A stretch of DNA of 32,148 bases from an uncultured Bacilli bacterium. GTDB taxonomy: Bacteria; Bacillota_I; Bacilli_A; RF39; UBA660. The notes beneath the pieces were generated by a model. It saw nothing but the letters and a program-made list of their open reading frames with translations, made no database searches and was not told where the DNA came from. Positions 4,391 through 29,618 of the stretch are shown here, one piece after another. The position numbers and the translations under genes were made by a program. The DNA lies in NCBI GenBank assembly GCA_947628375.1, contig CANQZQ010000005.1, positions 1 through 32,148 on the forward strand. Direction: 5' to 3'. Numbering within the stretch: position 1 is the first letter of the stretch; the number at the start of each line of letters is the position of its first letter.

Positions 4391-4414
4391 AAAAAAGTAG
4401 TATTTAAACTACTT
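4391..4414 (-). terminator. Terminator overlapping the stop codon of the 4409 CDS
   Basis: Minus strand AAGTAGT-ttaaat-ACTACTT-TTTT; stop TAG lies in the 5' arm. Confidence 0.7.
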
Positions 4415-5032
4415 CTTACTAACTATAATTAAACCTGTAAAGCCCCCAACTAAAATTATAAATATACTGGCAATAATAATGACATCATATTTCCCAGATT
4501 CTGGTATTTCTTTAGTAGAGTCCTCTGGTCTTATATCACAATTTAAAGTACCATGAGGAACATTTAAGGAAGATATATCAATATCTTTTTTACTGGCAAG
4601 TTCTTCTAAAACATCTTTATATTTTTTATCTGTTTGATAGGCAATAATTTTTTCATATAATTTATCTAAGTCTTTTGTTCCTATTTGTAAATAATCACCA
4701 ACCATAATAGTTGGAGTAGATAACCTTTCCGTATCTTCTTTATAGTGTTCTAGTGCATCTTGCATTAAAATAAGCCCATTTTTATTATCACTTTGAATCC
4801 ACTTTGGATTATTAACGTCTGTATAATCAGTACCACACCATACTTCTATATTAATAAGTTCAAAGGCATCGGGATCTTCTTTTAATTTTTCTTCAAAAAA
4901 AGCAAAAGCCGATTCACAAGCAGTACAACCATTTTTAGTAAACATATAAAGTTTAACATTATTTTTAGCATATACTGGTGTTAAGGCAAATATTGTTAGT
5001 AACGTAAAAAAAGTTAAATAAATTCTTTTCAT
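4409..5032 (-). CDS. Thioredoxin-like protein, signal peptide, C-terminal TM anchor (copy 1)
   Basis: LYMFTKNGCTACESAF (CxxC), TPTIMVGD (cis-Pro), C-terminal VIIIASIFIILVGGFTGLIIVSKK; RBS GGAGG precedes ATG at 5032. Confidence 0.8.
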   Translation of the reverse strand: MKRIYLTFFTLLTIFALTPVYAKNNVKLYMFTKNGCTACESAFAFFEEKLKEDPDAFELINIEVWCGTDYTDVNNPKWIQSDNKNGLILMQDALEHYKEDTERLSTPTIMVGDYLQIGTKDLDKLYEKIIAYQTDKKYKDVLEELASKKDIDISSLNVPHGTLNCDIRPEDSTKEIPESGKYDVIIIASIFIILVGGFTGLIIVSKK

Positions 5033-5078
5033 TTTTGGCCTCCTTATATAATTATAACACATCTATAAATAGTTACTA

Positions 5079-5102
5079 AAAAAGTAGCAAACGCTACTTT
5101 TT
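5079..5102 (-). terminator. Terminator overlapping the stop codon of the 5094 CDS
   Basis: Minus strand AAAAAGTAGC-gttt-GCTACTTTTT; stop TAG in the stem. Confidence 0.75.
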
Positions 5103-5708
5103 ACTTATAAATATTAATCCAGCAAAACCACCAATTAAGACAACAAATATTCCTGCTATAATTACTAAATCATTCTTGCTTGTTTCTTTTTTTTCTTCTT
5201 CTTTTGGATAAACATCACAGCTTGCACTTCCATGAGGAACGTTTAAGCTTGAGACATCTATATTATTATCTTTAGCAATACTTGCTACGACATCTTTATA
5301 TTTTTTATCCGTTTGATAAGCAATAATTTTTTCATATAATTTATCTAAGTCATTAGCGGTTGCTTGAAATTGATCACCAACAACAATAGTTGGAGTTCCT
5401 TCAATTTCTTCGCCAAAATGGTCAACTACTTTTTCCATTAGGGCTAATGCAGTATCACTACCTGTTATCCAAGGAGGATTAGTTTCACTTTGTGAATAAT
5501 CAGCTCCACACCATACTTCGATGTTAATAAGTTCAAAGGCATCGGGATTTTCTTCTAATTTCTTTTCAAAAAATTCAAAAGCATATTCACAAGCAGGACA
5601 ACCATTTTTAGTAAACATATAAAGTTTAACATCATTTTTAGCATAAGAATGTGGCAACATCATAACCATAGCTAAAACGGCCACTAAAGATATATAAATT
5701 TTCTTCAT
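5094..5708 (-). CDS. Thioredoxin-like protein, signal peptide, C-terminal TM anchor (copy 2)
   Basis: LYMFTKNGCPACEYAF, TPTIVVGD, C-terminal TM ending SKK; strongly similar to copy 1. Confidence 0.82.
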   Translation of the reverse strand: MKKIYISLVAVLAMVMMLPHSYAKNDVKLYMFTKNGCPACEYAFEFFEKKLEENPDAFELINIEVWCGADYSQSETNPPWITGSDTALALMEKVVDHFGEEIEGTPTIVVGDQFQATANDLDKLYEKIIAYQTDKKYKDVVASIAKDNNIDVSSLNVPHGSASCDVYPKEEEKKETSKNDLVIIAGIFVVLIGGFAGLIFISKK

Positions 5709-5732
5709 TTTACCTCCTAATTTTTTAATAAA

Positions 5733-6308
5733 TTATTTTTTACTCATGACAATTAAGCAGACAAAACCACCAACTAGAACAACAAAGATACTACCAATGA
5801 TGATTAAATCTGTAACACTAGTTTTAGCTGCAACTTTTTTATATTGTTCAAGATCAATATTTAATTTATCAGCTTCTTCTTTGACAATATCAACTTTTTC
5901 ATCTTCAGAAGCTTCTTTAGCATTCTTGATGGCATTATATACTAAACTATCATCATTAGGAAATCCAACTGTAGCATAATCACCAATAAAAATTGTTGGA
6001 GTAGCTATTTTTACAGTATCTAATTCTTTTCTTTCTAATAAAGTAATTAATAAATTATAAGCATCTTCATCTTCTATATTCCAGTTTGGATCATATACTT
6101 CGATAATATATTGCTCGAAAAGATCAGGTTCTTCTTTTTCTAAATTATCAAAATAATTAAAAGCATATTCACATCCTTTACAACCATTTTTACTAAATAT
6201 ATATACCGGTACTTTATCTACTGTTTCTTCTTCTGAAGCAGCGAAAGTTACAGGAATAAATGTTAATGTTAATAATAATGTAATTATACTCAATAATACT
6301 TTTTTCAT
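5733..6308 (-). CDS. Thioredoxin-like protein, signal peptide, C-terminal TM anchor (copy 3, divergent)
   Basis: VYIFSKNGCKGCEYAFNYF, TPTIFIGD, C-terminal TM ending SKK. Confidence 0.78.
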   Translation of the reverse strand: MKKVLLSIITLLLTLTFIPVTFAASEEETVDKVPVYIFSKNGCKGCEYAFNYFDNLEKEEPDLFEQYIIEVYDPNWNIEDEDAYNLLITLLERKELDTVKIATPTIFIGDYATVGFPNDDSLVYNAIKNAKEASEDEKVDIVKEEADKLNIDLEQYKKVAAKTSVTDLIIIGSIFVVLVGGFVCLIVMSKK

Positions 6309-6356: not shown

Positions 6357-6905
6357 TCACTTTTCAAGAGTTTTATAAATTTTCACAATTCTCACTATAA
6401 TCTCTTTATCATCAATATCTATTTTATTAGTGCTAATTAACGTAGCTAGGCCATTTGCATATAACCAAACATGCATAAATAATTCTTTAGCCTCAGAAAA
6501 AGTATAACCTTGTTTATTAACCAAATTAATAATAGCCCCTTGATTCCATTTTTCATTTAAAACATCATCAATACTTTTCCATTTTAAATTATTTGATAAA
6601 AATAAACTAATAAATAAATTTTTATAATATTTAGCAAATTCCACATAGGCAACACATAATGTTACTAAAGCTTTTTTATTATCTACTCTACTAGTGATAA
6701 ATTCATCATATTGTTTATATATTTCTTTATATATATCTTCTTTTATTTCATCCATATTTTGATAAATACGATATAAAGGTTTAGTGGAGATCTTTAACTC
6801 TTTAGCTAAATCTCTTGCATTAAGTGAATCCCAACCTTTTTTGTTAATCATGACAACTGCTTTTTTAATTATTGTTTCTTTTTCTAATTTGCAACTTGCT
6901 GGCAT
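6357..6905 (-). CDS. TetR/AcrR-family transcriptional regulator
   Basis: N-terminal HTH (IIKKAVVMINKKGWDSLNARDLAKELKISTKPLYRIYQNMDEIKEDIYKE) with helical C-terminal domain; RBS GAGGGGTGATAAT; TGA stop. Confidence 0.82.
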   Translation of the reverse strand: MPASCKLEKETIIKKAVVMINKKGWDSLNARDLAKELKISTKPLYRIYQNMDEIKEDIYKEIYKQYDEFITSRVDNKKALVTLCVAYVEFAKYYKNLFISLFLSNNLKWKSIDDVLNEKWNQGAIINLVNKQGYTFSEAKELFMHVWLYANGLATLISTNKIDIDDKEIIVRIVKIYKTLEK

Positions 6906-7078: not shown

Positions 7079-8803
7079 ATGACTTTCGATGAAGCTTTAA
7101 AAATTTTGGGATTAGATAACAATTATTCAGAAAGCCAGTTACGAAAAAAGTTTCATGATTTAGCAAGAATTTATCATCCTGATGGACAAGTAGACAAATC
7201 TTTAGAAGAACAAGAAATCGCATCAGAAAAAATGAAAGAAATAAATGAAGCTTATGATATTTTAACAAAATCTTTAAAAGAAGGGAAAAAAACAACTGAA
7301 AGTAATGCAAATTATTCAAATAATAATGCAAGTGAACATACCGTTAATTATTCATCTGATATTTTCGATAATTGGAACTGGTACAATATTAATGAGTTAA
7401 ATAACTATAGAGATTCTAAAACAAATATTATTAAAAAATACATTTTAACTTTTAATTTTAAGTGTAAGTTTTTAGATAAGGCTAATTTCAACCAATTTGT
7501 AAATGAATCTATCTTTAAAATTAGTAATGCAAAAAGTAAAATAGAAATAGATGAGGTTTTTTTAAAATTTACTAACACATTAGAAAAAATTTATAAAGAA
7601 TTTAAAAATAGATATTTTAAAATTAATAATATACCTGAAAATACACCTTTTGCTATTGATACTAACTTAACTTTTGAAGAATTTTTTAAAAAACTAGAGG
7701 ATATTAACAAAAATAAACAAGCCAATATTATCACAGAAGAGGTACATAGTTTAGTAGCATCTTACCAACTTCGCGAAAATTACGAAGATTTGCAAAATAG
7801 TATTAATGATTTAATGAATAACACTATAGACACTCTTTTATTAGTTCAGGATAGTTTTAATTATGAACTTCTTAAAAATAATCATCTTAATCAATTAAAA
7901 AGTAATATTGATGAATTATTCAAAAGGGCTTCTGTTAACAAACCTTTATATTTAGAATTGTTAGAAATTATAAATAAGTATAATTTGCCATTTAAAGATA
8001 GAATAGAAAATCTCAAAAATAAGATAGGCGATCCTTTATTTCCTATTTATTATCAAGAACTAAAGGCAGATATTAATAATTTACTTGAATTACTTGATCA
8101 TGGTGAGGAAATTAAGAATATTGAAAATAATCTTGCTATTAGATTTAATGAAGCAATAAATAGTATAAATGATCCACAAAAGCAAAAACTTATTATATCT
8201 TTATATCAAAGTATTATAAGTAATTTATCAAATATTAGTTTTGAAGGACTTATGCTACTTAATGAAATCAATTTTTACGATTATGATGAAGCTTTAAGAA
8301 TTTATAATAAAGTTAAAAATAATTTAATTACAGATAAAAATATAGAAGTTTATTTATGCGACGGGGTAATAGGTATAGCGCCAATAAAGCATGTAAAAGT
8401 AGATGGTGTAGAATATAATTTAACAGCTATTAATAAACAAAATGTCTTAAAAAAAGACAAAACTTTATTTGGGCAAATAGTATCTTTAGATGATTTTATG
8501 AAAAAAGCTATAGCCAGTTTTACAGTAGGTGAAAATAAAGAAGGAGAAGAAGTTATAATTCTATTTGAATTAAATTCTCTTAAACTCTGCTTATATAAGG
8601 GTCATTTGGAATTTTTTGACGATATAAAAAAACCATTTATAATACAAAATAAAACTAATCCTAATGATTATCAAGGTCGTTTGCAAGATAGAAATTATAT
8701 TATATCTTTAATTATTAATGATTGCTATCGAACATTGAAAATTTCAGAAAAAAAAGACTATCAAGTAATTGAAACATCATCTAAAAAAGTTGGTTCTCGA
8801 TAA
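7079..8803 (+). CDS. J-domain protein of unknown function, paralogue 1
   Basis: N-terminal J domain: ALKILGLDNNYSESQLRKKFHDLARIYHPDGQ...KMKEINEAYDILTKSLK with HPD; long helical middle; C-terminal LCLYKGHLEFF module. Confidence 0.85.
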   Translation: MTFDEALKILGLDNNYSESQLRKKFHDLARIYHPDGQVDKSLEEQEIASEKMKEINEAYDILTKSLKEGKKTTESNANYSNNNASEHTVNYSSDIFDNWNWYNINELNNYRDSKTNIIKKYILTFNFKCKFLDKANFNQFVNESIFKISNAKSKIEIDEVFLKFTNTLEKIYKEFKNRYFKINNIPENTPFAIDTNLTFEEFFKKLEDINKNKQANIITEEVHSLVASYQLRENYEDLQNSINDLMNNTIDTLLLVQDSFNYELLKNNHLNQLKSNIDELFKRASVNKPLYLELLEIINKYNLPFKDRIENLKNKIGDPLFPIYYQELKADINNLLELLDHGEEIKNIENNLAIRFNEAINSINDPQKQKLIISLYQSIISNLSNISFEGLMLLNEINFYDYDEALRIYNKVKNNLITDKNIEVYLCDGVIGIAPIKHVKVDGVEYNLTAINKQNVLKKDKTLFGQIVSLDDFMKKAIASFTVGENKEGEEVIILFELNSLKLCLYKGHLEFFDDIKKPFIIQNKTNPNDYQGRLQDRNYIISLIINDCYRTLKISEKKDYQVIETSSKKVGSR

Positions 8804-8821
8804 TTTACAAAAAATATTATG

Positions 8822-8852
8822 GCCATTTTCTAATGCAGGAAAGTGGCTTTTT
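8822..8852 (+). terminator. Terminator of J-domain gene 1
   Basis: GCCATTTTC-taatgcag-GAAAGTGGC-TTTTT; T-tract nearly abuts the next -35 box. Confidence 0.75.
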
Positions 8853-8854
8853 AA

Positions 8855-8883
8855 TTGACATTGAAAATGCCTTATGCTAGAAT
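8855..8883 (+). promoter_or_regulatory. Promoter of J-domain gene 2
   Basis: TTGACA-17 nt-TAGAAT. Confidence 0.75.
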
Positions 8884-8908
8884 ACTACTTAATTTCGGAG
8901 GGAATTTT

Positions 8909-10579
8909 ATGGACTTTTATAAAGCTTTACAAATAATTGGGTTATCTAATAATTATACTGAAAAAGAATTACGAAAAAAATATCATGATTTAGCAAGAAC
9001 TTATCACCCTGATGCATATGTAGATAAATCTTTAGAAGAACAAAAAATGGCCTCAGATAAAATGAAAGAAATAAATGAAGCTTATGATATTTTAGCTAAA
9101 GCTTTAAAAGGAAAAAGATACTATTCTACTTTTTCTAATAATGATAATGATGAAGATAATGATAATGAATTTAATAATACTGACCTTCAAAAATATAAAG
9201 ATAATATTTTAAATTTTATTAACAAAAATAATAATATAAGTATTAAAGTTAGCGATGTATTTAGTGAAGATATTTCCAGTTTTAAAAATTTTATTTCTGA
9301 ATATTCAAAGCGCATTAAAGAAGCTAATAGTAAAAAAATAATAGATAGTATTTATGATGATTATAAAGAATTACTTAAAAGATATTACAAAGATTTTAAA
9401 TATACATATTTTACAAAAAATAATATACCTTTAGAAAGTTATTTTATCATTAATACTATGTTATCAATTAATGAATTTTATAAGAGCTTAGAAAACTTTA
9501 AAAATTATCTCTATAATAACGTTGTAAAAGAAGTTGATGATGTAATTTCATTTTATAAAAATTCTACTTATTATAATGATATCAAAGATAAAGTTGAAAA
9601 ATTAAAATCAGAAACAGTTGCAAGTATTTTAAGTATTGACTCAAGTCTTTATGATTATAAAATTAATGAAGATTTTTATTTAAATAGTCTTAAAAGTGAA
9701 ATTGAAGATTTAATTAAAATAATATCTATTAATAAACCATTATATTTAGAATTAAAAGAAATAATAAATAAAGACTACTTACCGTTTGAAGAAGATCTTG
9801 AAAAACTGGAAAAGAATCTTTATAGCCCTTTATTTCCGTTATTTTATCAGGAATTAAAATTAAAAGTTACGACTATATTAGATTGTTGCTTTAATCATGA
9901 TGATGAAATAAAAGAAATTGAAAATAATCTAACTAATAAATATAATGAGGCTATAAAAAATATAAAAGATGGTAGACAAAGCTTTTTGATAAAACATTTA
10001 TATGATTCTATCTTTAATTTTTTAAGTACAAGAAAATATACTAATTTTGAAAGCATTAAGCTTCTTAATAAAATTGATTTTAATAATTATGAAGAAGCTT
10101 CAAAAATTTATAATTGTGTTCTAGATAATTTAAATACTGATAAAGAATTTGAAATTTATTTAGATCAAAATAAAGCAAATACGATAGTTTCAAAACATGT
10201 TGTAATTGATAATGAGGAATATGATGTATCTACTTTAAACAATGAACAAATAGTTCATGAAATTTATAGAGACATGGATAGTAATGTTATATCTTTAAAC
10301 TTATTTATGATTTGTGCAGAAGAATTTTTTTCAACATTTGAGTGGAGGGGAGAAACATGTGTTGGACTTTACCGATGGAATAATTTAATTCTATGTATAT
10401 ATAAAGAACATTTAGAATTTTTAAATGAATGTATGATATCAAATATAAACCAAATAGAGCCAAGAGAATATATCATCTTTAAAGGGAAACAATTTATTGA
10501 AAGTTTAATTATTAATGATTGTTATCGAAATATTGAAAAGTTTAAAGAAAATAAAAAGGCAAAGAAAAGAAAGAGATAA
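8909..10579 (+). CDS. J-domain protein of unknown function, paralogue 2
   Basis: MDFYKALQIIGLSNNYTEKELRKKYHDLARTYHPDAY...; GGAGG RBS before ATG 8909; the ORF-track start (8855, TTG) lies inside the promoter. Confidence 0.85.
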   Translation: MDFYKALQIIGLSNNYTEKELRKKYHDLARTYHPDAYVDKSLEEQKMASDKMKEINEAYDILAKALKGKRYYSTFSNNDNDEDNDNEFNNTDLQKYKDNILNFINKNNNISIKVSDVFSEDISSFKNFISEYSKRIKEANSKKIIDSIYDDYKELLKRYYKDFKYTYFTKNNIPLESYFIINTMLSINEFYKSLENFKNYLYNNVVKEVDDVISFYKNSTYYNDIKDKVEKLKSETVASILSIDSSLYDYKINEDFYLNSLKSEIEDLIKIISINKPLYLELKEIINKDYLPFEEDLEKLEKNLYSPLFPLFYQELKLKVTTILDCCFNHDDEIKEIENNLTNKYNEAIKNIKDGRQSFLIKHLYDSIFNFLSTRKYTNFESIKLLNKIDFNNYEEASKIYNCVLDNLNTDKEFEIYLDQNKANTIVSKHVVIDNEEYDVSTLNNEQIVHEIYRDMDSNVISLNLFMICAEEFFSTFEWRGETCVGLYRWNNLILCIYKEHLEFLNECMISNINQIEPREYIIFKGKQFIESLIINDCYRNIEKFKENKKAKKRKR

Positions 10580-10587
10580 TACTATGT

Positions 10588-10624
10588 AAAAAGAGGAAAG
10601 TTGAAAATCACTTTTCTCTTTTTC
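10588..10624 (+). terminator. Terminator of J-domain gene 2
   Basis: AAAAAGAGGAAAGT-tgaaaatc-ACTTTTCTCTTTTT. Confidence 0.75.
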
Positions 10625-10640
10625 AATTTTATTTTAATGA

Positions 10641-10669
10641 TTGACAGCGAAAATATCTTATGTTAGAAT
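10641..10669 (+). promoter_or_regulatory. Promoter of J-domain genes 3-4-5
   Basis: TTGACA-17 nt-TAGAAT; near copy of the gene 2 promoter; short gaps from gene 3 to 4 (34 nt) and 4 to 5 (5 nt). Confidence 0.75.
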
Positions 10670-10696
10670 ACTTCTTAATTCAAAGAGGGGGATTTT

Positions 10697-12373
10697 ATGG
10701 ATTTTTATAAAGCTTTACAAATAATTGGGCTATCTAGTAATTATACTGAAAAAGAGCTACGAAAAAAATATCATGATTTAGCAAGAACTTATCACCCTGA
10801 TGCATATGTAGATAAATCTTTAGAAGAACAAAAAATGGCCTCAGATAAAATGAAAGAAATAAATGAAGCTTATGATATTTTAGCAAAATCTTTAAAAGAT
10901 GAAAAATCATTTCAAAGTAGACCAAGTTATTGTAATTATACCAGTCATCAAAATGAAGATATTAAAGTTAATTTAAAAAAACACAAAGAAAAAATTCTAA
11001 GTTTTATTGAAAAAAATAGATATGTAAATAGCGATATCAGTGAAGAATTTATGGGAACTATTTATAATTTTAATTCATTTGTGGCTAAATATATAGCATA
11101 CGTGGCAAATGCAGAAAGTATAAATCTAGTTGATAATTTCTTTGACGATTATAAAAAAGAGTTAAAAGATTGGTATCATAAATTTAAAAATATTTATTTT
11201 ACAAGATATCTTATACCGGAAAGTTTTGATTTTGAAATTGATATTAATTTATCAATTAATGAGTTTTATGAACATTTAGTAAACTTTAAACATGACTACG
11301 ATAATGTAATAAAAAAGATAGATAATATAATATCTCCTTATAAACTTTATACCTATTATGAAGATATAAAAAATGATATTGAAAAATTAAGAGAAGAAGC
11401 AATTAATAATGTTTGTGATGATTATAATATGGAAAGTTATTATTATATAAATTTGCGCCACAATCTTGATAATTTATTTAAGTATTATTCTATTAATAAG
11501 CCATTATATGCAGAATTAGAAGAAATAATAAATAACAATAGTTTACCTTTTCAAAGAAAATTTCAAAGAAAAATGGAAAATCTTAGAGAAAATATATATA
11601 GTCCTTTATTTTATCTTTATTATATTGAGTTAAAGCTAAATATTAATAATTTATTAGACTACCAAATTCATGAGGGAGAAATTGCAGATATTGAAAATAA
11701 TTTAACCCAAAAATATAATGAAGCTTTAAAAAATATAAATGATGATAATGAGAAAAAAGAGTTATATTTTTTCTATAAATCCGTTGTGCATTATTTAAAA
11801 ACACCAAAAAATGTTAGCTTTCAAAGTATTAAACTCCTTAATGAAATTGATTTTAATAATTATGAAGAAGTTTTAAAAATTCATGATAAAATTAATAATA
11901 ATTTAATTACTAATAAAAGAGTTGAAATCTATATAAATAAATCCGAACAAAATGCCATAGCATCTATACATATTAAATTTGATGATGAAGAATATGATAT
12001 ATATTCAGTTAATGGCGAAGACGTAGTTTATGAGACTAATAATATGGATAATAATTTTATTTCTCTAGATGAATTTATGCCATCATTTGCAACCTTTGAT
12101 TGGAATGGTGAGTCTTGCATTGGACTTTACAACTATTATGGTTTATGTCTATGTGTCTATAAAGGCCATTTACAATTTTTAAGCTATCCAGCAAGAACCA
12201 ATATTGAATGGTACCCAGATTATAAATTTGGTATGTTTCAAAACAAAGATTATGTTAAAAGTTTATTAATCAATCAATACTATCAATATATTGAATTATG
12301 CAAAAAAGAAAAGAAAATCTTAAATTTAAATGATTTGGAAAATAATAATAATTTAGAAATCAAAAGAAAATAA
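10697..12373 (+). CDS. J-domain protein of unknown function, paralogue 3
   Basis: J domain with HPD almost identical to paralogue 2; conserved C-terminal module. Confidence 0.85.
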   Translation: MDFYKALQIIGLSSNYTEKELRKKYHDLARTYHPDAYVDKSLEEQKMASDKMKEINEAYDILAKSLKDEKSFQSRPSYCNYTSHQNEDIKVNLKKHKEKILSFIEKNRYVNSDISEEFMGTIYNFNSFVAKYIAYVANAESINLVDNFFDDYKKELKDWYHKFKNIYFTRYLIPESFDFEIDINLSINEFYEHLVNFKHDYDNVIKKIDNIISPYKLYTYYEDIKNDIEKLREEAINNVCDDYNMESYYYINLRHNLDNLFKYYSINKPLYAELEEIINNNSLPFQRKFQRKMENLRENIYSPLFYLYYIELKLNINNLLDYQIHEGEIADIENNLTQKYNEALKNINDDNEKKELYFFYKSVVHYLKTPKNVSFQSIKLLNEIDFNNYEEVLKIHDKINNNLITNKRVEIYINKSEQNAIASIHIKFDDEEYDIYSVNGEDVVYETNNMDNNFISLDEFMPSFATFDWNGESCIGLYNYYGLCLCVYKGHLQFLSYPARTNIEWYPDYKFGMFQNKDYVKSLLINQYYQYIELCKKEKKILNLNDLENNNNLEIKRK

Positions 12374-12407
12374 TTTCTAAATCAATTAAAAGGGAGGAGG
12401 ATTATAA

Positions 12408-14039
12408 ATGCTTTTTCAAGAAGCACTAAATTTATTTGGGTTAAATAGTAATTATACTGAAAAAGAATTACGAAAAAAATATCATGATCTAGCAAAAATT
12501 AATCATCCGGATGCGTATGTAGGTAAGTCTTTAGAAGAACAAAAAATGGCCTCAGAAAAAATGAAAGAAATAAATGAAGCTTACGGTGTTTTAACAACAT
12601 CTTTAAAAGACAAAAGCAATCGAACCGAAAGAAAAAATTACACTAGTTATAATTATGATCCTAAAAAGAATTATGCGGATTTAAAAAAATATAAAGGTGA
12701 AATTCTAGATTTTATTGAAAAAAATTCCTATGTAGGTAGGGAGGTTAAAGATGAATATAGTAAAATTATATATGATTTTATGACCTTTGTTTCGGAATAT
12801 AAAATGTTTATTACAAGAGAATATGATAAAGATTTAATAGATGATTTATATGAGAGATATAAAACAAAACTTAGAGAATGGTATCAAAAATTTAAAGAAG
12901 TTTTTTTTGCTAAGTATAATATACTTTTAGAGGTTCCTTTTAATATTGATATCAATTTATCTATTAATGGATTTTATGAGCATTTAATAAAGTTCGAACA
13001 TAATTATAATAATGTTATAAAAGAAATTGATGATATAATATATCCTTATAAAAATTATGCTTATTATGATGAGATCAAAGACGAAATTGAAAAATTAAGA
13101 AAAGAAACAATTATTGGCGTTTGTGATAATTATAATAAAAAACATTATTGCTATCAAGATTTACAAGATGGTATTAAGAATTTATTTGAATTTTATTCTA
13201 GTAATAAACCATTATATTTAGAGTTAGAAGAAATAATAAATGAAAATAATTTACCTTTTCAAGCACAACTTGAAGAACTTAAAAGAAACATTTATAAACC
13301 GATATTTCAACTTTATTATATGGAGTTAAAGTGTGAAGTTAATCGTTTAGGAGGTATACTTAATCATTACGGTGAAATAAGGGAAATTGAAAACAATCTA
13401 ACTATTAAATATAATGACGCTATAAAAAATATAAAAGATAAAATGCATAGAGATATGATAGGTTATTTGTACAATAAGATAATAAATTTTTTAGGAAGCA
13501 AAAATGAGACAAGTTTTGAAAGCCTTCAACTACTTAATAAAATTAATTTTATTAATTATGAAGAAGATTTAAATATTTATGAAAGTGTTGATAAATTTTT
13601 AATTACTGATAAAAAAGTTGAAATTTATTTAAGAACAAATAGTACCGATATAGTAGCGGACAAACATATTAAAATTGCTGATGAAGAATATGATATGTTA
13701 TCTATTAATGGTGAAAAAGTAATTTATGAAATTTATAATAATGTAGATAATAGTGTTATTTCTTTAGATGAATTTATGAGACTTGCCAGTGAATTTTTTA
13801 TAACATTTGATTGGAAAGGCGAACATTGTGTCGGACTTTACCGTTATAATGGATTAGTCCTATGTATTTATAGAGGTCATTTAGAATTTTTAAATGACGT
13901 TGGGATATCAAATATTGAGTTTCCCGAAGAACATGAATTTGGTAAAATGCGATGGAAACAATTTGTTAAAAGTTCAATTATTAATGAATATTACCGAGAT
14001 ATTGAAAAATTTAAAGACAATAATAAAAGAAAGAGATAA
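12408..14039 (+). CDS. J-domain protein of unknown function, paralogue 4
   Basis: NYTEKELRKKYHDLAKINHPDAY; GGGAGGAGG RBS; C-terminal FDWKGEHCVGLYRYNGLVLCIYRGHLEFL. Confidence 0.85.
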   Translation: MLFQEALNLFGLNSNYTEKELRKKYHDLAKINHPDAYVGKSLEEQKMASEKMKEINEAYGVLTTSLKDKSNRTERKNYTSYNYDPKKNYADLKKYKGEILDFIEKNSYVGREVKDEYSKIIYDFMTFVSEYKMFITREYDKDLIDDLYERYKTKLREWYQKFKEVFFAKYNILLEVPFNIDINLSINGFYEHLIKFEHNYNNVIKEIDDIIYPYKNYAYYDEIKDEIEKLRKETIIGVCDNYNKKHYCYQDLQDGIKNLFEFYSSNKPLYLELEEIINENNLPFQAQLEELKRNIYKPIFQLYYMELKCEVNRLGGILNHYGEIREIENNLTIKYNDAIKNIKDKMHRDMIGYLYNKIINFLGSKNETSFESLQLLNKINFINYEEDLNIYESVDKFLITDKKVEIYLRTNSTDIVADKHIKIADEEYDMLSINGEKVIYEIYNNVDNSVISLDEFMRLASEFFITFDWKGEHCVGLYRYNGLVLCIYRGHLEFLNDVGISNIEFPEEHEFGKMRWKQFVKSSIINEYYRDIEKFKDNNKRKR

Positions 14040-14044
14040 ACTAT

Positions 14045-15679
14045 ATGAATTTTGATAGAGCCTTATATATAATCGGATTAAATAGTGATTATACAGAAGA
14101 AGAATTAAAGAAAAAATATTATTCTTTAGCCAAGCAATATCATCCAGATGCTTTAATTAATCAAACGATAGAAGAAATAAAAGCAGCAGAAAAAAAGATG
14201 AAGGAGATTAATCTCGCATATGATACTTTAAAAAAAGATAGAAAAAGTAGTTTTTCAGCTGGTCAAAGTAATTATACTTATAAACAAGCTAGAGCTAATG
14301 AAGAATATGATTTTATATATTATTATAGAAACAGTATAATTAACATTATTCAAAACTATAATTGGGTTAATATTGATGGTAAAAAGGAATTTGTTAAAGA
14401 TGCTGCCAATTTTAAAACATTTTTCATAAATTTTACTCTTGATATTACTTATGCGTCAACAAAAGAAGAGATTGTTAGACTGCTTAGTGAATTTAAAAAA
14501 AGAGTTAAAAATTGGTATAATATATTAAAAGATTCTTATTTTAAAACTTACAATATACCTAAAAATATTAGCTTTACAATTAATGAAGATTTATCCTTTG
14601 ATGAATTTTACGAATCTTTAGCAAACTTTAAACATAGTTATGATAATGTTATAAAAGAAATAGATGACATAATATATCCTTATAAACTTTATACGAATTA
14701 TGAAATAGTTAAAGAAGATATTGAAAAATTAAGAGAAGAAACAATTAAAAATGTTTATGATGATTATAATGAAAAAGATTATTATTATCAAAACTTACAA
14801 AATAGCATTGATAATTTATTTAAATATTATTCTACTAATATAGCATTATATACAGAATTAGAAGAAATAATAAGTAACAATAATTTACCTTTTCAAAGAA
14901 GAATAGAAAATTTTAAAGAAAATATATGCGATCCTTTATTTTATCTTTATTATATGCAATTAAAACTAGCTATTAATAATTTATTAGACTACCAAAGTCA
15001 CGAAGAAGAAATTACCGGCATTGAAAATAACTTAACTAAAAAATATAATGAAGCTGTAAAGAATATAAAAGATGAAAAAGAAAAAAATGAGCTGTATTTT
15101 TTCTATAAATCTATAGTACATTATTTAAGAACACAAAAAAATGTTAGCTTTCAAAGCCTTAAGCTACTTAATGAAATCGATTTTAATAATTGTGAAGAAG
15201 TTTTAAAAATTCATGATATGATTGATAATAATTTAATTACTAATAAAAAAATTGAAATATATATAAATGAATTAGAACCAAATACCATAGCTTCTAGACA
15301 TATTAAAATTGATGACGAAGAATATGATATGTTATCAAATAATGGTGAAAACGTAATTTTTGAAACTTATCATAATATAGATAATTTTATTTCTCTAGAT
15401 GAATTTATGGCTAAAATAAGACCATTTTTTACAACCTTTGATTGGAATGGTGAACATTGTATTGGACTTTATAATTATGATGGTTTACGTCTATGTATTT
15501 ATAAAGGTCATATACAATTTTTAATCAATCCGGCGATAACCAATACTGTATGGTACCCAGACCATAAATTTAGTATGTTTCAAAGTAAAGACTATGTTAA
15601 AAGTTTACTTATTAATGCTTGCTATAGCGAAATTGAAAAGTTTAAAGAAAAGAATAAGGAAAAGAAAATTACAAGATAA
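14045..15679 (+). CDS. J-domain protein of unknown function, paralogue 5
   Basis: DYTEEELKKKYYSLAKQYHPDAL; C-terminal FDWNGEHCIGLYNYDGLRLCIYKGHIQFL. Confidence 0.85.
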   Translation: MNFDRALYIIGLNSDYTEEELKKKYYSLAKQYHPDALINQTIEEIKAAEKKMKEINLAYDTLKKDRKSSFSAGQSNYTYKQARANEEYDFIYYYRNSIINIIQNYNWVNIDGKKEFVKDAANFKTFFINFTLDITYASTKEEIVRLLSEFKKRVKNWYNILKDSYFKTYNIPKNISFTINEDLSFDEFYESLANFKHSYDNVIKEIDDIIYPYKLYTNYEIVKEDIEKLREETIKNVYDDYNEKDYYYQNLQNSIDNLFKYYSTNIALYTELEEIISNNNLPFQRRIENFKENICDPLFYLYYMQLKLAINNLLDYQSHEEEITGIENNLTKKYNEAVKNIKDEKEKNELYFFYKSIVHYLRTQKNVSFQSLKLLNEIDFNNCEEVLKIHDMIDNNLITNKKIEIYINELEPNTIASRHIKIDDEEYDMLSNNGENVIFETYHNIDNFISLDEFMAKIRPFFTTFDWNGEHCIGLYNYDGLRLCIYKGHIQFLINPAITNTVWYPDHKFSMFQSKDYVKSLLINACYSEIEKFKEKNKEKKITR

Positions 15680-15712
15680 AAAAAGCTGACTATTTTGATA
15701 ATCAGCTTTTTT
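15679..15712. terminator. Bidirectional terminator, J-domain gene 5 / 15711 CDS
   Basis: Perfect 11-bp arms AAAAAAGCTGA / TCAGCTTTTTT; both convergent stop codons touch its ends. Confidence 0.8.
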
Positions 15713-15956
15713 ATTTATTTTTAGTTAATGTTCTATTCAGAGATTTTTCTTGCTCTACTTCTTCCCTAATGCCCACAACAGGAATGGCAATTCCTTGAGT
15801 ATCATACTCATAATATGCATGATACATTCCTGGGGTATATTTAGACTTTTGTAAATAAAAACTATTTTCTTCGCTTGTACCGATGGTTAAATGCTGAGGC
15901 CTATATTTAAGTTTACTATAATCAATATATGGCCGTTTAATTTTTTTATCTTTCAT
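15711..15956 (-). CDS. Small hypothetical protein (81 aa)
   Basis: ORF with RBS (AGGAGG just outside downstream-gene gap is shared region), lies directly after pheT; no recognised motif. Confidence 0.5.
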   Translation of the reverse strand: MKDKKIKRPYIDYSKLKYRPQHLTIGTSEENSFYLQKSKYTPGMYHAYYEYDTQGIAIPVVGIREEVEQEKSLNRTLTKNK

Positions 15957-15964
15957 AAAACCTC

Positions 15965-18364
15965 CTACTTATCTCTAATTATAGCGTTATATTTATGACA
16001 AATATTATCAATTATTTTATTAAATACTTCCATTACTTCTTCTTCTGTTAAAGTTCTGGTTTTATCTTCAAATGTTAAGTTATAAGCAATTGATTTTTTA
16101 TTCTCATCTATTTTATCACCAGTGTAGACATCAAAGATTTTAACATTTGTTAAAAGTCTTCCACCATAAGATTTGATATCTTTAACTAAGTCTTCAGCTA
16201 AAACAGACTTTTCTACTACAAAAGCAACATCTTTTTCAACGGTTGGATATTTATTAAGTTCACTATATTTAACATCACTAGTTTTATGAGTAAATAAACT
16301 AGTTAAAGACATTTCACAAACATAAACATCTTCTTTAGTAACATTTGGGTGTAATTTACCAAAATAACCAATAGGTGTACCATCAACAATAATTTCACTA
16401 TTAATTTTAGGGTGAATTTCTTTTGGTAAATTATCACTTAATTTTAAGGAATAGCGATTAGTTAAACCTAAGTATTCAAGTAAATTTTCTACTACTCCTT
16501 TAATTAGATAAAAGTCTGTTTGATAATTTAAACTATTCCATGTATTAGATAAATACTTACCAGTCATGGCAAATGCTAATTTAGTATCTTCTATATATTC
16601 ATTATCTACTTCACTATAAACATTAGATATTTCATATAAATAAATATCTTTATTCTTTTTATTTAAATTATAATTTACTACTTCCATTACAGAATTAAGC
16701 AAGCTTTGTCTTATAATACTTCTTTCTTTTAACATTGGCTTTAAAAGCTTAATTGAAGGATTAAATTTATAATTATATTTATTATTGTCTTCTTCACTAA
16801 TTAAAGTATATGTTCTAATTTCATTAAAACCTAAAGTACGCATTCTTTTAGAAACAATTTTTCTAAATTTGATATTATCACGATAAACACCTTTTTTAGT
16901 TCTAATCAAAGGTAGAGTTGGTTTAATATTTTCATAACCCATTAATCTTCCTACTTCTTCGATAATATCTTCTTTTTGGGGATATATATCTTGTCTTCTA
17001 TTAGGTACTTCTACTTCATATTCGCCATTTTTTTCGTGATATGCAAAACCTAAATTAGTAAGAGTAACTTTCACATCATTATCTTCTACTTTCATACCTA
17101 AAATAGAATTAAAATCTTTTAAAGCTGCTTTAATAACTTTAGGAGTTTTATCAACTTTATCATAAGAAATGCTACCTTTAACTATTTTAGCATCAGCATA
17201 TTTTTCTAATAGGTGGCAAGCTCTTTTTAAAGCAAGAAGACAGTATTCATAATTAAGTGGTTTTTCAAAACGAAGACTTGCTTCACTACGTAGTCCGAGT
17301 CTAATTGAAGTATATCTTATATTATAGGGATTAAACATTGCTGATTCAATTAAAATATTTTTAGTACCCGCTGTAATACCTGAATTAAGGCCACCCATAA
17401 CACCGGCTACACACAAAGGAGTATTACCATCAGTAATTAAGATATCATCTTTAATTAAATCTCTTTCTTCTTTATCTAAAGTAATTATTTTTTCGCCATC
17501 TTTAGCCATTCTAACAACTATTTTGTCTCCAACCACATCTTTATCAAAGAAATGGAGAGGTTGGCCATATTCAAGCATAACATAGTTAGATATATCAACA
17601 ACGTTATTAATACTTCTAACACCCGCAACTTCAAGACGATGTTTGATAAATTCCGGAGACTCTTTTATTTTGACGTCTTTAGCAATCATTAAATTATACA
17701 TATAGACATTATCTGTTAATACTTCTAAAGATACTTGATCATTAATATCTTCATCTAATTCTTTATAACTGACATCAGGCATAGTTACTTGTTTTTTAAG
17801 GACTGCTGCAACTTCATAAGCAAAAGGAATATGATTGTTGCAATCAGTACGATTAGGGTTTAAATCAAGTTCATAAGTGGTATCTTCAACACCAAGAAAA
17901 GCTAATGCATTTTCTCCAACGGGGGCATCACTAGGAAGCTCACAAATACCTTTACTATAATTTTCTTCCGTTTTTTCTTCTAAGCCAAGTTCAAATAAAG
18001 CACATAGCATACCATTTGATTCTACTCCCCGAATAGTGCTTTTTTTAATTTGAAATGTTTTATCACCATCTGGAAGTATACACCCTGGAAGAGCCACAAT
18101 TACTTTAATGCCCGCTCTTACATTAGGGGCTCCACAAACAATTTGTAAAGTATCTGTGCCAACGTTTACTTTACAAACATGTAAGTGATCACTATCAGGA
18201 TGTGGGATACATTCTAAAACTTCGCCAACAACTAAATGATCAATTTTAGTTGTTGTTACTTTTTCAACATTAATACCTGATCTAGTAATTTTATTTGCTA
18301 AAGAGACTTTATCTTCATCTTTAACTGGAACATAATCATTGATCCAATTTAAACTAATTGCCAT
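15965..18364 (-). CDS. pheT: Phenylalanine--tRNA ligase beta subunit
   Basis: MAISLNWINDYVP..., tRNA-binding domain, B3/B4 and FDX-ACB C-terminus (YPTVEKDVAFVVEKSV...). Confidence 0.97.
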   Translation of the reverse strand: MAISLNWINDYVPVKDEDKVSLANKITRSGINVEKVTTTKIDHLVVGEVLECIPHPDSDHLHVCKVNVGTDTLQIVCGAPNVRAGIKVIVALPGCILPDGDKTFQIKKSTIRGVESNGMLCALFELGLEEKTEENYSKGICELPSDAPVGENALAFLGVEDTTYELDLNPNRTDCNNHIPFAYEVAAVLKKQVTMPDVSYKELDEDINDQVSLEVLTDNVYMYNLMIAKDVKIKESPEFIKHRLEVAGVRSINNVVDISNYVMLEYGQPLHFFDKDVVGDKIVVRMAKDGEKIITLDKEERDLIKDDILITDGNTPLCVAGVMGGLNSGITAGTKNILIESAMFNPYNIRYTSIRLGLRSEASLRFEKPLNYEYCLLALKRACHLLEKYADAKIVKGSISYDKVDKTPKVIKAALKDFNSILGMKVEDNDVKVTLTNLGFAYHEKNGEYEVEVPNRRQDIYPQKEDIIEEVGRLMGYENIKPTLPLIRTKKGVYRDNIKFRKIVSKRMRTLGFNEIRTYTLISEEDNNKYNYKFNPSIKLLKPMLKERSIIRQSLLNSVMEVVNYNLNKKNKDIYLYEISNVYSEVDNEYIEDTKLAFAMTGKYLSNTWNSLNYQTDFYLIKGVVENLLEYLGLTNRYSLKLSDNLPKEIHPKINSEIIVDGTPIGYFGKLHPNVTKEDVYVCEMSLTSLFTHKTSDVKYSELNKYPTVEKDVAFVVEKSVLAEDLVKDIKSYGGRLLTNVKIFDVYTGDKIDENKKSIAYNLTFEDKTRTLTEEEVMEVFNKIIDNICHKYNAIIRDK

Positions 18365-18365
18365 T

Positions 18366-19415
18366 TTAATACTCCCTTCTATCAAACTCTTTTAAAGTTC
18401 TTATATCATGATTAACATAGAATGTTCTTATATCACTAATACCATATTTAAGCATTGCGAGTCTTTCAAGGCCAAAACCAAAAGCAAAGCCATTCCAAAC
18501 AAGAGGATCATAACCACAATTTTTTAAAACGATTGGGTTTACCATACCAGCACCACCAACTGTTATCCAGCCTGTCCCTTTGCAAAGATTACAACCTTTG
18601 CCATTACAATTAAAACAGCTAATATCCATTTCCACACTAGGTTCTGTAAAAGGATAAAATGATGGTCTAAATCTTGTTTCTCTTGATTCACCAAATAACA
18701 TTTTGGCTACTGCCTCAAATGTTCCTTTTAAATCACCTAGAGTAATATCTTTATCAACAAGCAATCCTTCCATTTGAGTAAATTCGTGAGAATGGGTGGC
18801 ATCATCTTCATCTCTTCTATAAGTTTTACCAGGGCAAATAATTCTTATTGGTTCATGCCCTTCACATCTAAGCATTTCTCTTACTTGAACAGGACTAGTT
18901 TGACTTCGAAGTAAATATTCATCTCCTCTTATATAGAAGGTATCTTGAGCATCTCTTGCTGGATGACCTTTAGGTAAATTTAGAAGTTCAAAGTTATATA
19001 AGTCTTTTTCTACTTCTGGCCCTTCAACAACATCATAACCCATACTCATTAAAAGATTTTCTAAACTTTCAATAATTCTTTCTAAAGGGTGTGCACTTCC
19101 TACTTCTATTTTAGTACCAGGAAGGCTAACATCAATTGCTTCTTTATTTAATTTTTCATTTATTTCTTGCTCTTCTAAGTTTTTACTAATTCTTTCATGA
19201 TTTTCATTAAAGATATTCTTAAGTTCATTAACACTCATACCAAATTCTTTTTTTAATTCATTTGGTACTTCTTTAATTTTACTACTAAGTTCAGTTATGG
19301 AACCATTTTTTCCCATGTATTGTTGCTTAAGAGTATCTAGTGCTTCTTTAGTTTTAACATCATTAAATACTGTTTCTAATTCTTTTTTAATCTTATTTAT
19401 TTCTTCATTATACAT
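18366..19415 (-). CDS. pheS: Phenylalanine--tRNA ligase alpha subunit
   Basis: Class II aaRS motifs (HPARDAQDTFYI, THSHEFTQMEGLLVDK, GFGLERLAMLKYGI); GGAGG RBS before ATG at 19415. Confidence 0.97.
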   Translation of the reverse strand: MYNEEINKIKKELETVFNDVKTKEALDTLKQQYMGKNGSITELSSKIKEVPNELKKEFGMSVNELKNIFNENHERISKNLEEQEINEKLNKEAIDVSLPGTKIEVGSAHPLERIIESLENLLMSMGYDVVEGPEVEKDLYNFELLNLPKGHPARDAQDTFYIRGDEYLLRSQTSPVQVREMLRCEGHEPIRIICPGKTYRRDEDDATHSHEFTQMEGLLVDKDITLGDLKGTFEAVAKMLFGESRETRFRPSFYPFTEPSVEMDISCFNCNGKGCNLCKGTGWITVGGAGMVNPIVLKNCGYDPLVWNGFAFGFGLERLAMLKYGISDIRTFYVNHDIRTLKEFDRREY

Positions 19416-22585: not shown

Positions 22586-22632
22586 AAAAGAGTTCGTTAC
22601 TTATGTTTAACTTTAGCAACAACTCTTTTTTT
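22584..22632. terminator. Bidirectional terminator spanning the convergent SDR and 22597 stop codons
   Basis: AAAAAAGAGTT (22584-22594) / AACTCTTTTTT (22621-22631), 26-nt loop containing the minus-strand stop. Confidence 0.7.
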
Positions 22633-23403
22633 AGTTTTCTTTTGATATGGTGGTAAACTTAAAATTAATTCACCATTTTCATAAGTTATAAATTCTTTAT
22701 CAAATTCACATTCCCCTTTAGCGAAAGCAATGCCTTTATAAATAGCTTGCTCACATTCATCTTGATAATCATCTCTATTAATATGTTGTCCACAACAACG
22801 ACAAACATAATTTTCATCAATACTATGTCCAAAGATGTAGCATAATTCAATTAATAAACTTTCTAAATACTCAAGATAAGATTCTAATTTTTGATGCTCT
22901 TTAGATAACTCATCTTCTAAAGAACAGCCTTTTTTACCTAATACTTTACCAAGATAATTAGTATGTGCCTTAGTATTTTTAGGAAAAATTGATTCTTTAT
23001 TTTCTTGATAAACAGTTCTTCTTTCACCACAAATACTGCATTCATAAGTCACTTGATATGGTGTTTTACTTTGAGTGCCTCTAGCTCCATTAGGCTTAAG
23101 ACAAACTTTAACAATTTCAAAATCGTGACGATTTTCCGCACAAGATTTTCTTTTTAACTCAGCATGTCTAGCTTCATTTTCCTCGATGCTTTTTTTCGTT
23201 TCTAAAATCTCATTATCGATTTCTTTTTTCTTAGCTAATCTTATATTATCTAATAGCTCTCTTCTTCTATCATTATTGGCATCCAATCTTTCTAAAGCTT
23301 TAATATATTTTTGTTGTAACTCTCTTACTTTACTTTCTTCTTCTTGACATTCAAAAATAGTTTTTTCAAATTTGCTATCAAATAAATTAATATCTTCTTT
23401 CAT
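22597..23403 (-). CDS. Coiled-coil protein with Cys-pair (zinc-ribbon-like) motifs, paralogue A
   Basis: YECSICGERRTVYQ and CRCCGQH; N-terminal charged coiled coil. Confidence 0.6.
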   Translation of the reverse strand: MKEDINLFDSKFEKTIFECQEEESKVRELQQKYIKALERLDANNDRRRELLDNIRLAKKKEIDNEILETKKSIEENEARHAELKRKSCAENRHDFEIVKVCLKPNGARGTQSKTPYQVTYECSICGERRTVYQENKESIFPKNTKAHTNYLGKVLGKKGCSLEDELSKEHQKLESYLEYLESLLIELCYIFGHSIDENYVCRCCGQHINRDDYQDECEQAIYKGIAFAKGECEFDKEFITYENGELILSLPPYQKKTKKRVVAKVKHK

Positions 23404-23435
23404 CTGTAAGCTTTCCTTCCATAAACTAGTTAAAT

Positions 23436-23464
23436 ATTGTAGTATAAAATATGAAGTATCGCAA
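23436..23464 (-). promoter_or_regulatory. Promoter of the 22597 CDS
   Basis: TTGCGA-17 nt-TACAAT on the minus strand. Confidence 0.6.
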
Positions 23465-23467
23465 TTG

Positions 23468-24280
23468 TTACTTAGATTTTACTCTAGCAACAACTCTTTT
23501 TTTATTTTTTTCTTGATATGGTGGTAAATTTAGCACTAAATCTTTATGGGTATTTATGATAAATTCGCCTATACCTATTGCCGGAATAACAATGGCTTCT
23601 GGGTAAGCTACACCTTTATATACGGCTTCCTTTTGGCTTTCTTCATAGTAGCCTTTTCCAACATGCATTCCACAACAGCGACATTCATCATTTTCATCAA
23701 CACTATGTCCAAAGATATGGCATAATTCGATTATTAAACTTTCCAAATACTCAAGATAAGATTCTAATTTTTGATGCTCTTTAGATAACTCATCTTCTAA
23801 AGTATGACCGGTTTTACATAATCTATTACCTAGATAATTAGTATGAGCTTTTGGATTTTTAGGGAAAATTGATTTATCACTTTCTTGACAAATTATTTTC
23901 CTTTCACCACAAATACTACATTCATAAGTCACTTTATATATATATTTATCTATAGATTGGTCTTCTCCGTAATTATAATAAGAAGTAACAATCCCAAAGT
24001 CGTGACCATTTTCTGCACAAGATCTTCTTCTTAACTCAGCATGTCTAGCTTCATTTTTCTCGAGTCTTTTTTTCGTTTCTAAAATCTCACTATCAATTTC
24101 TTTTTTCTTAGCTAATCTTATATTATCTAAAATATCTCTTCTTCTATCATTATTGGCATCTAGTGTTTCTAATGCATCAACATATTTTTGTTGTAACTCT
24201 CTTACTTTGTTTTCTTCTTCTTGGCATTCAAAAATGATTTTTTCAAATTCACTACCAAATAAATTAATATCTTCTTTCAT
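23468..24280 (-). CDS. Coiled-coil protein with Cys-pair (zinc-ribbon-like) motifs, paralogue B
   Basis: YECSICGERKIICQ and CRCCGMH; extensive similarity to paralogue A. Confidence 0.6.
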   Translation of the reverse strand: MKEDINLFGSEFEKIIFECQEEENKVRELQQKYVDALETLDANNDRRRDILDNIRLAKKKEIDSEILETKKRLEKNEARHAELRRRSCAENGHDFGIVTSYYNYGEDQSIDKYIYKVTYECSICGERKIICQESDKSIFPKNPKAHTNYLGNRLCKTGHTLEDELSKEHQKLESYLEYLESLIIELCHIFGHSVDENDECRCCGMHVGKGYYEESQKEAVYKGVAYPEAIVIPAIGIGEFIINTHKDLVLNLPPYQEKNKKRVVARVKSK

Positions 24281-28427: not shown

Positions 28428-28457
28428 AAACTTTACTTAAAGCAAGGGGAAATGATT

Positions 28458-29615
28458 ATGGCAAACAAGAAAGATTTAAATAGTTTAAATGATGATGAAA
28501 TATACTTTTATTTAATATGTCTTAAAACTTTAAAAAATTTTAATCTCTATAGTGAAGATGAATTATTTAAAAGACTTAAAGAAATATATAAAACTGATAC
28601 CAAAACAATAGAAGATAATCAAGAGGCATTATTTAATTTTGTTAAGGACAAATATCGTTATGGATTAATTAATGATTTATTAAAACAAGTATTAGAGCAT
28701 TTACAGTCTGATAAATTTTCCAGTTTTAAAGATAACTTTTTAATTGATAACCTAGATTACTTATTGGATTTTATTTCTGATTATTGTATCAAAAAATCCC
28801 AACTTTTAAAGCAAAAGTGTCCTAATAGTACATTTCTAAATAAAAATTTAAGAGAAGAATATATTATAGAGTTATTGAAAGAGTTAGATCCTTCTTTAGA
28901 ATTAGTACAAAAATATAAATGGGCAAAAGAAAATAAAAGAATAATTAATTTAGATGAATATGGTAGAGATGAAGCTAAAGAGATTTTAGCAAAATATGGG
29001 CTTCATGATATTGATTTTAATTGTTGCTTATTTTTAGATGATGGACCACTTATTGTTTTAGCAAATACAGAAGAAATAGAAGATTTAGCGAATTTTGCTC
29101 ATGAATTTGCCCATTTTGTTAATGGCAGAAGGTTAACTCCTAGTATATGTGAATATTATGCTATCTTTTTTGAACTTTATGCAATGAAATTTTTGTTAAA
29201 CAAAAACTACCCAAAAGAAGAAATTGCTTATTTATATTCAGAAAGAATTAATGATATAGTTAATGTTTTGTTGGAAGGTAGTATTCCTTTTTATTATTTA
29301 AAATTATATTTACAAAATAAAGAAGTAAATGAAAACCTTGATATTAATTTTTATAAAAATTTTACTAATGCCAAAGAATTAGCTCATAAGTCATGCGATA
29401 AATGTATTGAACAATTAATGCGTAAACCAGGTATTATTCAAGAAGCTTATTCTTATTTAATGGGATTTGTTTTAGCAGATCAATCTTTAGAAAAACTTAA
29501 TAATGATAATATTCTAAAAGAATTAATTGATTTTACTAAAAATGGTAACGAAAATATTTTAGATATTTTTAATCTTTTAGGTTTTAGAATAGATAATTTA
29601 AAATTAAGTAGGTGA
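28458..29615 (+). CDS. Putative gluzincin metallopeptidase-like protein, M3/PepF-like motif, paralogue 1
   Basis: LANFAHEFAHFVNG (HExxH) and downstream CEYYAIFFE resembling PepF AEVASTFNE; TGA stop. Confidence 0.6.
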   Translation: MANKKDLNSLNDDEIYFYLICLKTLKNFNLYSEDELFKRLKEIYKTDTKTIEDNQEALFNFVKDKYRYGLINDLLKQVLEHLQSDKFSSFKDNFLIDNLDYLLDFISDYCIKKSQLLKQKCPNSTFLNKNLREEYIIELLKELDPSLELVQKYKWAKENKRIINLDEYGRDEAKEILAKYGLHDIDFNCCLFLDDGPLIVLANTEEIEDLANFAHEFAHFVNGRRLTPSICEYYAIFFELYAMKFLLNKNYPKEEIAYLYSERINDIVNVLLEGSIPFYYLKLYLQNKEVNENLDINFYKNFTNAKELAHKSCDKCIEQLMRKPGIIQEAYSYLMGFVLADQSLEKLNNDNILKELIDFTKNGNENILDIFNLLGFRIDNLKLSR

Positions 29616-29618
29616 CTT

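Follow-up and report, generated by a model that had tools for sequence, protein, structure and literature searches.

Five tandem class C J-domain proteins with a shared, uncatalogued extension in an uncultured Bacilli bacterium

Why should a bacterium with one DnaK encode five J-domain proteins side by side, and what might their long extensions contribute? We addressed this for contig C5 of G000, the source genome, a bin of 122 contigs and 1.30 Mb; the whole stretch analyzed, 32,148 nucleotides, is called the window below. The five genes lie on the forward strand at 7079-8803 (gene 1, 574 aa, J domain at residues ~1-68, DnaJ E value 2.3e-11), 8909-10579 (gene 2, 556 aa, ATG start), 10697-12373 (gene 3, 558 aa), 12408-14039 (gene 4, 543 aa), and 14045-15679 (gene 5, 544 aa), exactly the span and lengths stated for five co-oriented genes in an earlier note made from the letters alone. 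The assignments combined the ORFs with the alignment for gene 1 and with Pfam for genes 2 and 5. All ORFs terminate properly under table 11, and an alternative genetic code was unnecessary. The array is flanked by a TetR-like regulator gene on the left (6357-6905, reverse strand) and by pheT, for the phenylalanyl-tRNA synthetase beta subunit, on the right (15965-18385, reverse strand), both identified by reading the sequence, and an 81-aa ORF without a Pfam match lies directly downstream of pheT (15711-15956, reverse strand).

At least six family members are present in the source genome, since a sixth is split over two contig ends (C70/C27; L047 end/L046 end) that share a 25-aa identical overlap. 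This split member adjoins a probable addA/addB pair, and a broken copy occupies the matching place in a related genome (G028 C71). The chaperone genes themselves lie outside the window, as had been noted for dnaK and grpE: they occur in the order hrcA-grpE-dnaK-pepF-dnaJ on a separate contig, which thus includes the canonical dnaJ. Other tandem paralogues were also observed in the window. Three related thioredoxin-like proteins at 4409-6308 (reverse strand) were read as having a signal peptide, a CxxC motif, and a C-terminal membrane segment, and their copy number varies among relatives; two coiled-coil proteins at 22597-24280 (reverse strand) carry two zinc-ribbon-like CxxC pairs each and matched no family in Pfam, NCBIfam, PHROGs, or PADLOC; and two proteins at 28452-30827 (forward strand) with HExxH-type motifs (HEFAH and HEFGH), probably metallopeptidase-like, had no family match.

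All five proteins matched the Pfam DnaJ family (PF00226) at 40.1 to 45.0 bits, above the gathering cut-off of 27.8 (E values of 3.9e-10 to 1.2e-11), and the HPD motif was intact in each, as first read from the sequence. The J fold was also recovered in an AlphaFold model of gene 4, whose J domain was aligned by Foldseek to 58 residues of 6psi at 2.5 Å. The HPD of J domains triggers ATP hydrolysis by Hsp70, and the positively charged residues of Escherichia coli DnaJ that contact DnaK are R22, K26, R27, K48, and K51 (PMC8215388). In the array, K48 is kept, as is R22 except for a K in gene 5, while K26 is replaced by H or Y, R27 by D or S, and K51 by N; by inspection, R27 and K51 are likewise absent from the canonical DnaJ of this genome. 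Because K26, R27, and K51 are not conserved, the contact of the array J domains with DnaK may be weaker or tuned. The source genome encodes one DnaK and one canonical DnaJ, and a single DnaK was found in each of 15 carrier genomes, the remaining weak matches being short or ~340-aa ORFs; therefore, the paralogues should compete for DnaK or share it. Across the wider family, HPD was present in 29 of the 33 J regions read, and the four variants were YPD (G005_b), HEA (G184), HSD (G187), and YID (G625). In these HPD-changed members (at L042:9986-11614 for G005_b and at L052, L066, and L145), the sequence suggests that the J domain is probably inactive while the extension persists.

The ~450-aa extensions of the five proteins align over their whole length, with overall identity of ~40% to gene 1, whose extension is the most diverged, and ~50% among genes 2 to 5; a C-terminal module is conserved in all five. 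Searches of the extension against Pfam, NCBIfam, PHROGs, and PADLOC gave no accepted match, only hits that were driven by the J domain or fell below the cut-off. Transposase and PAS matches on genes 3 and 5 were of the latter kind and were rejected, being absent from the paralogues. A profile search of the PDB likewise returned only matches to the J domain and chance-like ones. The extension family appears to be without any curated model.

The gene 4 model was built from an 11-sequence alignment of the window proteins and related loci and had a mean pLDDT of 87.8 and a pTM of 0.68. The J part is formed by helices at residues 3 to 70, followed by a low-confidence linker at 69 to 87 that is rich in Asn and Ser. 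In the extension, a helical domain (85 to 395, ~310 aa) precedes a beta domain (strands at 404 to 504, ~100 aa) and a C-terminal helix (508 to 541), and the beta domain and helix modeled alone adopted the same fold (pLDDT 87.3, pTM 0.84). In the model, the extension comprises two folded domains and a terminal helix. The earlier note had described a long Asn/Lys/Glu-rich helical region and a conserved C-terminal module; the model adds to this picture a folded, all-helical domain at 85 to 395 and a beta domain at 404 to 504. No significant match to the extension (E ≤ 0.001) was obtained when the whole model and the beta domain were compared with PDB structures and viral models by Foldseek, and PH-, galectin-, and neurexin-like matches to the beta domain were discarded (TM scores of ≤0.28, rmsd of >11 Å). 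The claim that the five proteins share an unrecognized extension has therefore held, as it is homologous along its length and, in the profile searches and structure comparisons, matched no characterized family by sequence or fold. No signal peptide or membrane segment was evident in the five array sequences.

In class C J-domain proteins, a J domain is combined with unrelated domains that bring Hsp70 to a client or a place (PMC8215388, section 8). By their sequences, the array proteins are members of this class, having a J domain over the cut-off with HPD and none of the architecture of a G/F region with DnaJ C-terminal or zinc-finger domains; they share with the class, as defined in PMC8215388, an HPD J domain joined to domains unrelated to DnaJ. 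They differ from class C proteins in that their extension has no sequence likeness or significant fold likeness to the curated or solved families found, and in that five occur in tandem with homogenized J heads. Class C is heterogeneous by definition; bacteria have few such proteins, for example DjlA, HscB, and DjlB/C, and the well-studied ones are mostly present in one copy. With the canonical DnaJ and CbpA of classes A and B, the array proteins have the J domain and HPD in common, whereas neither the zinc finger nor the C-terminal beta-sandwich was matched in them (no Pfam zinc-finger or DnaJ_C match at E ≤ 0.1 in the five proteins, in line with the first reading), a canonical DnaJ is encoded elsewhere in the genome, and the NCBIfam DnaJ_bact model (TIGR02349) scored 32.8 to 43.9 bits in them versus a cut-off of 377.2. 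HscB resembles them in that a J domain is followed by a helical domain, and weak fold matches to it were seen, mainly to the J domain; however, the array extension is far longer and includes a beta domain, no partner HscA was found in a genome with one Hsp70 only, and the hscB model (TIGR00714) reached 26.0 to 32.8 bits versus a cut-off of 46.75. Mycoplasma TopJ is a specialized J-protein in a low-GC lineage. Unlike TopJ, the array proteins show no EAGR-type match, there being no Pfam match besides DnaJ above the cut-off in the five proteins, in line with the first reading, which saw no EAGR box, and no terminal-organelle genes were noticed.

To define who carries the family, we searched the 38 genus genomes with a DnaJ scan and with a profile built from the five proteins. 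Seven of the 38 carry it (G000, G005, G028, G030, G033, G036, and a diverged member in G027), with G005 having members at several places. In one of these places (L044:7675-9966), between rnpA/yidC and dnaA, two family copies are frame-disrupted, which we noted as decay of duplicates. About twelve other genera of the GTDB family also have the extension, at a low identity of ~16 to 26% in the alignment. An iterated search with the J-less extension recovered eleven proteins from further genera versus none in 2,480 shuffled controls, and a family-wide scan found members in at least 12 of 291 genomes at E ≤ 1e-6, a lower bound, as the best few candidates per genome were scored. In class-wide samples of 296 and 247 genomes, any match outside the GTDB family was restricted to the J domain and its edge. 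Phage and plasmid records yielded no relatives of the extension, nor did viral contigs, for which scans with one or two short peptide patterns make weak negatives. On these searches the extension is confined, as far as detected, to the GTDB family of the window, a large uncultured one, where it occurs mostly as scattered single genes. The architecture was found in seven genomes of the genus and, in diverged form, in the wider family, and the proposal of a lineage-specific family agrees with the genus, family, and class samples.

Most distant members stand alone among housekeeping genes, as in murD-J-rRNA methyltransferase, and no neighbor gene is shared consistently; G625 has a separate tandem pair, of which one copy is the YID variant. 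A 281-aa protein of G163 corresponds to the helical domain, and none of the frames upstream of it encodes a J domain. Together with the HPD-changed members, this protein marks the extension as an independent module. An ORF of G280 with a double beta module was not counted as a further J-less protein, because it runs near a contig end. Among other observations, a J-extension gene of G201 (L119:5279-6526) lacks the beta domain and lies beside small proteins of WXG100-like type and a large ORF resembling a secreted toxin, and its near-identical counterpart in G130 lies near rnc. A J-protein of another genus (L067/L130:3983-5593), adjoining rplL, has a hydrophobic, probably membrane-spanning middle segment and no established homology of its extension to the family.

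Within the genus, the array is located between pheT and tetR, with five copies in the source genome, two each in G028, G033, and G005, and one in G036; in G030 the contig begins inside the array, so that three copies and the pheT side alone are visible. The same site is empty in G060, G007, G009, G035, and G001, where the pheT end is ~70 to 105 nt from tetR, and holds other genes in some further relatives. Of the 38 genus genomes, only the six with the array at this site have an ORF of 81 to 84 aa beside pheT; the remaining 32 lack it, and we therefore take the array insertion and the small ORF to share one history. These comparisons suggest that the array originated in a single sub-lineage, at one place on the chromosome.

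The five genes are not related to each other in the same way along their length. Genes 2 and 3 are 96% identical in nucleotides over the J domain versus 63 to 67% over the extension, with the switch at codon ~61, and their dS is 0.15 in the J domain versus 0.65 and 0.93 in the helical and beta domains. Gene 4 shows the opposite pattern relative to its orthologues G028_b, G033_b, and G036: its extension is 86 to 95% identical to theirs and its J domain only 72 to 74%, while that J domain is 79 to 84% identical to genes 1 to 3 of its own genome. The corresponding dS values are 0.67 to 0.74 for the J domain versus 0.15 to 0.37 for the extension (for G036, 0.74 versus 0.19 in the helical and 0.37 in the beta domain). 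Protein-level constraint on the J domain alone does not account for this pattern. Gene 3 is a mosaic by segment identity, with an array-type J head, a "type a" segment (~66 to 190), a "type 5" segment (~190 to 500), and a "type a" tail. Maximum-likelihood trees were in conflict, the J data rejecting the extension tree (delta lnL of 144, rejected by the AU test); the J-domain alignment is short (~66 codons), and the tree difference is far beyond noise. The J tree unites genes 1 to 4 of the source genome, and the extension tree unites types across species, the gene 4 type occurring in four genomes and the gene 5 type in three. Taken together, these comparisons are strong evidence that the genes recombine as modules, the heads being homogenized within a genome and the tails kept apart.

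Comparisons of orthologous extensions gave omega values mostly of 0.27 to 0.42 for the closest pairs, with one pair reaching 0.56 in its beta domain, and on these estimates the extensions are under purifying selection. Paralogue pairs within one genome gave 0.44 to 0.72, which we read as relaxed or shifted constraint and not as proof of positive selection. Modular recombination, insertion at one site, and a modular fold go beyond what the earlier note contained.

The array has its own predicted promoters, ribosome-binding sites, and terminators. Near-identical promoter-like sites (TTGACA-17-TAGAAT with TG before the -10) precede gene 2 (8855-8883, forward) and gene 3 (10641-10669, forward), and the -35 element TTGAC shows no variation across the upstream regions of nine family genes from six genomes. 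An alternative in-frame TTG start of gene 2, at 8855, falls inside its promoter. Terminator-like hairpins with T runs follow gene 1 (8821-8848, forward) and gene 2 (10588-10623, forward), and a further terminator-like hairpin, scored on the reverse strand, separates gene 5 from the small ORF (15679-15712). With gaps of 34 nt between genes 3 and 4 and 5 nt between genes 4 and 5, genes 3-4-5 probably form one transcription unit from the gene 3 promoter to the hairpin at 15679-15712. A CIRCE-like operator with one mismatch was found upstream of hrcA-grpE-dnaK, whereas the window has no HrcA/CIRCE site even with up to three mismatches allowed; for this reason, heat-shock control by HrcA probably does not extend to the array.

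We consider it probable, with some reserve, that the five proteins are targeting adaptors for DnaK that carry different tails on a common J head. Each HPD J domain would dock on the cell's only DnaK and stimulate its ATPase, and the ~450-aa extension, attached by a flexible linker, would pick the client or the site through its helical and beta domains; as most differences among the paralogues lie in the extension, one DnaK would be given several specific jobs. Tandem duplication would have amplified the array at its site, and segmental recombination would homogenize the J heads (plus the promoter, for genes 2 and 3) within the genome and reshuffle segments of the extension. Direct support comes from the J domains with their HPD, the homology and predicted fold of the extension, the single DnaK, the mosaicism, the purifying selection, and the occupancy of the site; from these we infer DnaK stimulation, client selection, and specialization of the paralogues. 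Weighing against this reading are the distant members with no neighbor in common, the loss of HPD in 4 of 33 J regions, the J-less relative, and the unconserved K26, R27, and K51 of the array. The co-chaperone interpretation first offered for this locus is retained in its J fold, its lineage-specific family, and its unmatched extension, and is amended to include the beta domain. A bolder version, which we regard as unlikely, is a recombining co-chaperone repertoire in which gene conversion keeps the DnaK-docking heads uniform and client-selecting tails are shuffled between the tandem genes. A bacterium with a small genome would thereby have an evolvable adaptor set, perhaps against foreign or fast-changing proteins, and the helical and beta domains would represent either novel folds or known folds put to a novel use.

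The patchy presence of the family (7 of the 38 species of the genus), an insertion site that five sampled relatives leave empty and others fill with different genes, copy numbers of 1 to 5 with mosaic extensions, and decayed copies in G005 C1 and G028 C71 would also suit a fast-evolving conflict family, whose paralogues recognize phage or mobile-element proteins or block DnaK-needing phages and whose tail recombination is selected. We judge this unlikely: none of the five proteins matched a PADLOC-DB family, no defense genes were among the neighbors, no extension relatives were found in phage and plasmid records or, by short peptide patterns, in viral contigs, the orthologous extensions are under purifying selection, and distant members sit in housekeeping loci. 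It is quite improbable that the proteins are instead a structural or scaffold family of the TopJ type, with an accessory J domain and with helical and beta domains that build or position a cell structure. Conservation of the extension as a unit, its occurrence with HPD lost or with no J domain, and the hydrophobic putative membrane segment of the distant L067 protein are in its favor, but Pfam matched neither EAGR nor anything else besides DnaJ above the cut-off in the five proteins, their sequences show no obvious membrane segment or signal peptide, nothing was seen to connect them with genes for division or the cytoskeleton, and retention of HPD in 29 of 33 J regions implies that DnaK contact is generally maintained. 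Because HPD is lost in 4 of 33 and one relative (G163) is J-less, the extension may nevertheless act without DnaK. Tandem duplication with gene conversion and no specialization, i.e., dosage or near-neutral copy-number change of an ordinary co-chaperone, is favored by copy numbers of 1 to 5 between close species, by broken copies elsewhere, and by the other tandem paralogues of the window (three thioredoxin-like, two zinc-ribbon, and two HExxH proteins), which show duplication to be common there, and homogenized J heads could arise from tandem recombination alone, with no functional meaning. Yet the extensions, diverged to 45 to 50% identity, are intact in all five window genes, and extension types are common to several species with orthologue omega mostly of ~0.3 to 0.4, so that we hold this explanation to be quite improbable as well.

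The open-access literature yielded no paper describing gene conversion in tandem arrays of J-proteins. The 1.3-Mb source genome, which has a single DnaK, encodes at least six class C J-proteins that share an undescribed, predicted two-domain extension, five of them in tandem. For heads to stay constant while tails vary in a genome with one DnaK is unusual, and it can be put to the test. Should the adaptor reading hold, this family would provide a natural test of how J-proteins divide the work of one Hsp70, for which orthologous tails with swapped heads have already been made by evolution.
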